63,671 nt of DNA from Eggerthellales bacterium (GTDB taxonomy: Bacteria > Actinomycetota > Coriobacteriia > Coriobacteriales > Eggerthellaceae). This document shows, one piece after another, positions 23,916-27,842 of this stretch. The position numbers were made by a program, and so were the translations under genes. The DNA is taken from assembly GCA_029219345.1 (NCBI GenBank), contig JAQXTF010000044.1, positions 1 through 63,671 of the forward strand. The letters are read 5' to 3'. The number at the start of each line of letters is the position of its first letter. The first letter of the stretch is position 1. The notes under the pieces were generated by a model. The model did not search any database. It was not told where the DNA came from and worked only from the letters and a program-made list of their open reading frames with translations.

Positions 23916-24179
23916 GGATTTTTTGAAAAAAAGCGCACAAACCAACAAACCACATAACGTTGGCTTTTTAAAACCTGCATGTCAGGCGTGCGGTCATGCC
24001 GCGCAGCTCTCATGTTCCCTCATGAAGCCGCCAAGGTACTCACGCTTCTTGCAGCGCCACCGCCTTGTCGGTGGAATAATTTCTAGGAACTCCCATTCCT
24101 AGGCGAGATCTTCCGGTTTCCCGGAGGAGAAAACCTCGCGAACAGTGCATAGTCGCCAGTAAGGCTTTTCATCCGAAGA

Positions 24180-24211
24180 CTAAGCAAATTACTCGCTTCG
24201 CTCGTAATTTC
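24180..24211. repeat. 32-bp direct repeat, copy A
   Basis: Identical to 24336-24367. Each is itself hairpin-like (AAATTAC ... GTAATTT with a CGCTTCGCTCG-type centre). The two copies are 156 bases apart and each begins one of two related structured units. Confidence 0.9.
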
Positions 24212-24252
24212 TTGCCTCGCATTCGCTCGGCAAGAGCCCCAGAGGCTTTTCG

Positions 24253-24330
24253 GGGCGTTAGATAAGGCTGTCTCGAAGCCGTAGCGTACTTCACGCTACG
24301 TAAGGCTGAGAGAAAAGCCTTCTAGCACCC
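24253..24330 (-). ncRNA. Long imperfect hairpin, unit 1 (candidate structured RNA)
   Basis: The 78-base segment folds on itself: GGGCGTTAGATAAGGCT against AAAGCCTTCTAGCACCC at the base, and TAGCGT with ACGCTA at the tip. It shares about 65 bases of sequence with the tip part of unit 2. No coding frame fits. The strand is taken from the adjoining tRNA transcript. Confidence 0.5.
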
Positions 24331-24335
24331 GGAAA

Positions 24336-24367
24336 CTAAGCAAATTACTCGCTTCGCTCGTAATTTC
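24336..24367. repeat. 32-bp direct repeat, copy B
   Basis: Identical to 24180-24211 (copy A). It ends where the long hairpin of unit 2 begins. Confidence 0.9.
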
Positions 24368-24473
24368 ATTTAGCTTCTGTGAGGCATTAGATGGAGCCGT
24401 CTTGAGACCGTAGCGTGCTAAGCACGTAAGGTCGAAAGAAAGGCTTCAGATGATGCCTCACAGGAGCTAAATG
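24367..24473 (-). ncRNA. Very long hairpin directly after tRNA-Gln, unit 2
   Basis: The first 23 bases (24367-24389) pair without interruption to 24451-24473, after which a tandem GA mismatch and another 7 pairs follow. GACC/GGTC and CGTGC/GCACG lead to a TAA tip loop. The outer strand overlaps the tRNA-Gln CCA end by two bases, so the hairpin would be transcribed directly after the tRNA. It has no T run and hence is not a simple terminator. Confidence 0.6.
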
Positions 24474-24545
24474 GCTGGGGTACCAGGATTCGAACCTAGG
24501 TAGCTGGTACCAAAAACCAGAGTCCTGCCGCTGGACGATACCCCA
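24472..24545 (-). tRNA. tRNA-Gln (anticodon TTG)
   Basis: Acceptor TGGGGTA pairs with TACCCCA, T-arm is present, and the CTGGT/ACCAG stem encloses loop TTTTGGT, giving TTG. The CCA end is encoded at 24472-24474. It lies 17 bases downstream of tRNA-Lys on the same strand. Confidence 0.96.
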
Positions 24546-25985: not shown

Positions 25986-26019
25986 CGTCGCCACGCGATC
26001 AATCTGACGTTTCGGCCGG

Positions 26020-26064
26020 AAAAAATAATCGCGGCGCGAGACCGAGCTGGCCTTCGCGCCGCGA
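26020..26064 (-). terminator. Terminator of groEL
   Basis: On the minus strand two 11-base arms, TCGCGGCGCGA and TCGCGCCGCGA, pair perfectly and are followed by TTATTTTTT. It lies 41 bases after the groEL stop. Confidence 0.88.
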
Positions 26065-26105
26065 GCTAGAGCGTAAGCGGTTATTTGCCGGCCTAAACGC
26101 CAGAT

Positions 26106-27842
<1,737 letters not shown>

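Follow-up and report, generated by a model that had tools for sequence, protein, structure and literature searches.

The window analysed is a 63,671-nt stretch of a contig from an Eggerthellales bacterium. On its minus strand, tRNA-Lys is followed by tRNA-Gln, a long hairpin (H1), a 33-nt repeat, a second long hairpin (H2), a short hairpin, a second copy of the 33-nt repeat and, further on, infA. The tRNA-Gln gene (TTG; 24472-24545, minus) is abutted at its 3' end by H1 (24367-24473), for which minus is the gene-sense strand and plus the better-folding one. H2 (24253-24330, minus) is a second copy of the same element. One copy of the repeat (24335-24367), which contains a short AAATTAC..GTAATTT hairpin, lies between H1 and H2, and the other (24179-24211) lies beyond H2; the repeat is assigned no strand.

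Two related hairpins beside tRNA-Gln

An earlier note on this DNA had described two long, related hairpins at the end of a tRNA transcript. Both are real, as shown by folding against shuffled sequences. H1 is a single hairpin (-53.3 kcal/mol, z -9.9 on the minus strand; -73.0 kcal/mol, z -15.0 on the plus strand), with the plus strand better by about 20 kcal/mol. H2 folds less strongly than H1 but significantly (minus -41.2, z -4.9; plus -46.0, z -5.6). As the note had it, H1 begins within the CCA of tRNA-Gln, the last CA of which forms the outermost pair. Kinship of the two hairpins by descent was also borne out: they align over 37 ungapped nt at 76% identity, and about 78 nt of both fit one covariance model. 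The identical repeat said to precede each hairpin is indeed a perfect direct repeat, though of 33 nt rather than 32 bp. The hairpin in its first copy is weak alone (z about -1.5).

A scan of the window placed a promoter-like site upstream of tRNA-Lys and found nothing resembling a terminator on the minus strand between tRNA-Gln and H1. It is therefore plausible that transcription reads through from tRNA-Gln into H1.

The neighbouring region (23970-24165), also singled out as full of hairpins, is rich in them (z -8.5 for the whole 515 nt), but some of this stretch belongs to another, conserved feature. At 23930-24080 (minus), upstream of infA, lies a conserved multi-hairpin RNA with a terminator-like end, present in about ten relatives with the same synteny. 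It carries the motif CCGACAAGGCGG..TACCTGGCGG..GCGCGG..CCGC..GCCTGACANGCAGGT plus the terminator-like hairpin, shows compensatory change at 12 of 38 pairs, and had no match in Rfam. The hairpins near infA are a conserved RNA separate from H1 and H2 and account for much of the surplus of hairpins in 23970-24165.

Other elements were seen 3' of tRNA-Ala or tRNA-Gln at four loci (L004 and L008 in genome G050, L003 in G115, L326 in G018). Each starts with an inverted copy of its own tRNA's T-arm or 3' half and finishes with that tRNA's 3' half and CCA in direct orientation. They seem to represent a second type of invader of tRNA ends.

A dispersed palindromic family

A DNA search of 138 Eggerthellaceae genomes from 48 genera recovered only a short core, located 3' of tRNA-Ala (G050) and of 5S rRNA (G033). 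A first covariance model (R1), built from six sequences including H1 and H2, had double-sided changes at 12 of 25 pairs and matched 84 of the 138 genomes and 32 of the 48 genera (matches were saturated in G030). A second model (R2) drew on 44 loci outside the window, aligned under the guidance of R1, which contained H1 and H2. It matched H1 at 24382-24458 with 57.3 bits (E 2.8e-14) and H2 with 52.6 bits (E 6.7e-13). Pairing is kept across these 44 loci, with double-sided changes at 22 of 25 pairs and 91.4% of cells paired, compared to 28-47% in slid controls.

Beyond H1 and H2, R2 found only one further match in the window, a weak one (18.6 bits, E 0.007) at 26016-26092 (minus), directly 3' of groEL (ORF 26106-27737, minus). 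This copy forms a strong hairpin (z -6.8) and follows a same-strand stop, as is typical of the family; its stronger-folding strand is the minus (gene) strand, an exception in the family. Elsewhere in the same genome, the DNA search found no second close copy of H1 or H2, but the model identified a family copy between rplX and rplE (L303, C83:15572-15648, 40 bits). The same junction is occupied in G068, G064 and G020.

A typical member consists of a hairpin A of about 28 nt (GTTCCG...CGGAAC), a gap of about 5 nt, an imperfect hairpin B of 114-118 nt and a short tail. Hairpin B has the layout GACGCTGCG-arm-GCACCCCATCTTG...CAATCTGGGGCAC-arm-CTCGCTGAC, with fixed ends that are invariant and mostly mispaired. 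Its length is held in nearly all of 122 copies, a set chosen by its GACGCTGCG/CTCGCTGAC ends, despite widely varying arms. Hairpin A was considered as an independent repeat and rejected, as the GACGCTG end comes next in 34 of 39 cases. Copies with exact ends occur in 78 of the 138 genomes, with up to 48 per genome, and a reversed control pattern gave none. The fixed-end search found no exact-ended copy in the window genome, so its members are divergent; H1 and H2 lack both hairpin A and the fixed ends.

In some copies, at L195 and L196 and in G065, the 3' tail is extended by CCAACCTGGGCGG and small hairpins; this longer tail recurs at several sites in G065, which suggests further modules. At L216 (G065, near 1411411), one copy has seemingly been inserted into, or copied within, the hairpin B of another.

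Named hosts include Gordonibacter, Adlercreutzia, Paraeggerthella, Enteroscipio, Collinsella and one Atopobiaceae MAG. Many pattern matches outside Coriobacteriia were discounted, as they look like chance coding matches and have no hairpin A. One typical copy had no match among phage and plasmid records, neither the window nor typical copies matched an Rfam family, and literature searches found no description of such a palindromic family. H1 and H2 are thus members of a dispersed family that appears to be previously undescribed and is not tRNA-specific.

This context bears on the earlier suggestion of a large tRNA-associated RNA such as ROOL or GOLLD. The hairpins are structured and adjoin a tRNA gene, as such an RNA would be. 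They span only about 110 nt, however, Rfam, with its ROOL and GOLLD models, gave no hit even at E 5, and most relatives of the hairpin follow protein-coding genes. We regard this identity, refuted by genomic context, as highly improbable.

Folded strand, placement and polymorphism

Mismatches of the A.C and G.U types differ by strand, as an A.C on the gene strand is a G.U or G.T on the other, so that the sequence reveals which strand is under selection. At arm positions 12-16 of hairpin B the gene strand has 41 A.C mismatches and 5 G.U (26 and 3 once the set is reduced to 71 dissimilar copies). On the opposite strand, tandem G.A and U.G/G.U pairs take the place of the conserved ATCT/ATCT and CA/CA loops. 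That strand is also the better-folding one for hairpin B in 117 of 122 copies with RNA parameters and in 120 of 122 with DNA parameters. These wobble-type mismatches and folding energies indicate that selection on hairpin B acts mainly on the strand opposite the gene, which is also the leading-strand template. Hairpin A has the reverse bias (G.U 64, A.C 32), favouring the gene strand.

The earlier idea of a structured RNA outside known families stands as far as the covarying structure and the lack of an Rfam match go. As a structure, however, hairpin B does not belong primarily to mRNAs or tRNA trailers. For H1 and H2, the better-folding strand is opposite the tRNA transcript, by energy and by the A.C versus G.U mismatches of the family. 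This speaks against a tRNA 3' trailer, as does the absence of H1 and H2 from relatives with the same tRNA-Gln/infA order.

From these mismatch and folding data, RNA and DNA are indistinguishable as the selected molecule. Each copy could in principle be a gene for a short structured RNA transcribed opposite the upstream gene, since the antisense strand is the better folder and carries the tandem G.A and U.G/G.U motifs. Single-stranded DNA fits the wobble data equally well under DNA parameters, though, and copies inside operons would be transcribed head-on with the mRNA. Rfam also gave no match, and we consider a family of antisense small-RNA genes rather improbable.

The elements are dispersed singly, with no cassette arrays, and placed closely after genes. 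A same-strand coding stop lies 0-12 nt before hairpin A in 20 of 43 full copies (G065 and G068), compared to about 1% expected at random, and in 6 more of the 43 the stop is inside hairpin A. The stops before elements (15 TAG, 4 TAA, 1 TGA) are near the genomes' general TAG preference, and we rejected TAG as an insertion target on this ground. Judged by GC skew in four complete genomes, the leading strand carries 94 of 97 copies (G068 23/23, G065 33/35, G052 22/23, G062 16/16; p 1e-10 against a coding bias of about 70-72%).

Orthologous junctions differ between Gordonibacter species, being filled in some and empty in others. At recG, the element is present in G068, while G065, G066 and G067 are empty and have overlapping genes. 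L198 is filled in G068 and G065 and empty in G066 and G067, and the last gene codons are replaced by hairpin A sequence. Between scpB and rluB, hairpin A alone is left in G075 and a remnant in G066. At the window locus, a genome of another genus (G011, L313) has its own copy 3' of tRNA-Gln. Copies of the same listed sequence also occur at different sites within G008, and likewise within G006. The Gordonibacter sites and the window locus thus show the presence/absence polymorphism of MITE-like elements, but the aligned empty and filled pairs show no target-site duplication. In several cases the difference from an empty site is larger than a clean insertion would leave, with a clean boundary at best at recG, and the alignments gave no demonstration of precise transposition of a whole element. 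Some sites, such as rplX-rplE, are common to different genera, so many copies are old.

This variation at the same gene among close species, together with the better folding and wobble tolerance of hairpin B opposite the mRNA, counts against the main rival explanation, a host-functional, co-transcribed hairpin of 3'-UTRs and tRNA trailers that protects 3' ends, modulates operon readthrough or is cut by RNase III, in the manner of REPs close to stop codons in E. coli. The position 0-12 nt after stop codons is what such a hairpin would show, and REPs less than 15 nt from a stop in E. coli affect translation (PMC12306157). The gene-strand wobble bias of hairpin A and the lack of any terminator-like site on the minus strand from tRNA-Gln to H1 are likewise in its favour. 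On balance we judge a host-functional hairpin unlikely.

Relation to known elements and proposed explanation

The family resembles the REP/BIME/REPIN elements mobilised by TnpA-REP (RAYT) in being palindromic, intergenic, present in many copies and located at gene 3' ends. REPs hug gene 3' ends and can supply stop codons (PMC3733652). A CGTC, as in REP tags, adjoins hairpin A about 5 nt away on the complementary strand. However, a REP is a 20-50-nt palindrome with a GTAG or CGTC tag, whereas this element combines 28 and 117 nt; hairpin A alone would fit the size, but hairpin B (114-118 nt) has GACGCTGCG/CTCGCTGAC ends instead. REPs in E. coli are also distributed over the two strands without obvious clusters (PMC12306157), while this element is 97% leading-strand.

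We surveyed two candidate families of mobilising enzymes, Y1 transposases and RVT_1 reverse transcriptases. Y1/RAYT showed no significant association (Fisher p 0.12), with Y1 absent from the element-rich genomes G065 and G030, and the local RAYT genes have palindromes of their own. Reverse transcriptase showed none either (RVT_1 p 0.09), being absent from most element-rich genomes. At L282, L298, L299 and other loci, RAYT-like genes are flanked by very long, near-perfect palindromes that are unrelated to the present element.

Integron attC sites are imperfect hairpins of 57-142 nt with variable sequence and conserved structure, placed 3' of a gene stop and recognised on one folded (bottom) strand, which in sedentary integrons is mostly kept on the leading-strand template (25/30) (PMC5371416, PMC2727003). 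The element shares the structure-conserved imperfect hairpin after a stop, the leading-strand-template bias and the folding preference for one strand, a resemblance of behaviour rather than of membership. In contrast to attC, it occurs as single dispersed copies after housekeeping genes and lacks the R''/R' boxes (RYYYAAC and GTTRRRY), its ends being invariant and different in the 122 copies, which were selected by those ends. A GTTAGAT is present in H2 but is not common to the family.

ERIC, BOX, bcr and similar repeats are non-coding, hairpin-forming, dispersed sequences of about 100-150 nt and of mobile origin. They are likewise long dispersed hairpins, compared here by general description and, for sequence, via Rfam; the strict placement after stops and on the leading strand sets the present element apart. 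Group IIC introns insert after hairpins, on a replication-exposed strand. This choice of site is similar, but we saw no ribozyme features in the element, and most element-rich genomes have no reverse transcriptase genes. In combining fixed mispaired ends, conserved structure with variable sequence, one favoured strand, a post-stop position and polymorphism, the element behaves like attC and REPs, yet it lacks the R boxes, tag and size that define them, and the Y1 survey gave no significant tie to the REP enzyme.

Overall, H1 and H2 are probably divergent members of a non-autonomous mobile element, palindromic and dispersed, that occurs in Coriobacteriia and mostly in Eggerthellaceae. On the best reading by analogy, the element probably acts as a folded single strand, with REP-like or attC-like behaviour. 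It would spread as folded single-stranded DNA, recognised by its structure and fixed ends as attC or REPs are, by an enzyme that may be supplied in trans (none emerged from the Y1 and RVT_1 survey). Insertions just after a gene, or at the end of a tRNA or 5S gene, would survive because both neighbours stay intact, and the hairpin A loop could even provide a stop codon. In the window, two copies and the 33-nt repeat would have built up 3' of tRNA-Gln, probably as passengers read through in the tRNA-Lys/tRNA-Gln transcript. Counting against this explanation are the negative outcome of the Y1 and RVT_1 survey, the lack of target-site duplication, the empty sites that differ by more than an insertion, the old shared sites, the reverse bias of hairpin A, the groEL exception and the divergence of H1 and H2. 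More tentatively, the family could represent a novel type of mobile element built on a single-strand hairpin, which would target the post-stop junction on one replication strand, be recognised through its folded strand opposite the gene, and have no reliance on RAYT, integron integrase or reverse transcriptase.

The family, spread over dozens of gut Coriobacteriia genera, offers a clean system for studying how bacterial palindromic repeats spread. It also carries a warning: covariation in hairpins beside a tRNA does not in itself make them RNAs of its transcript.
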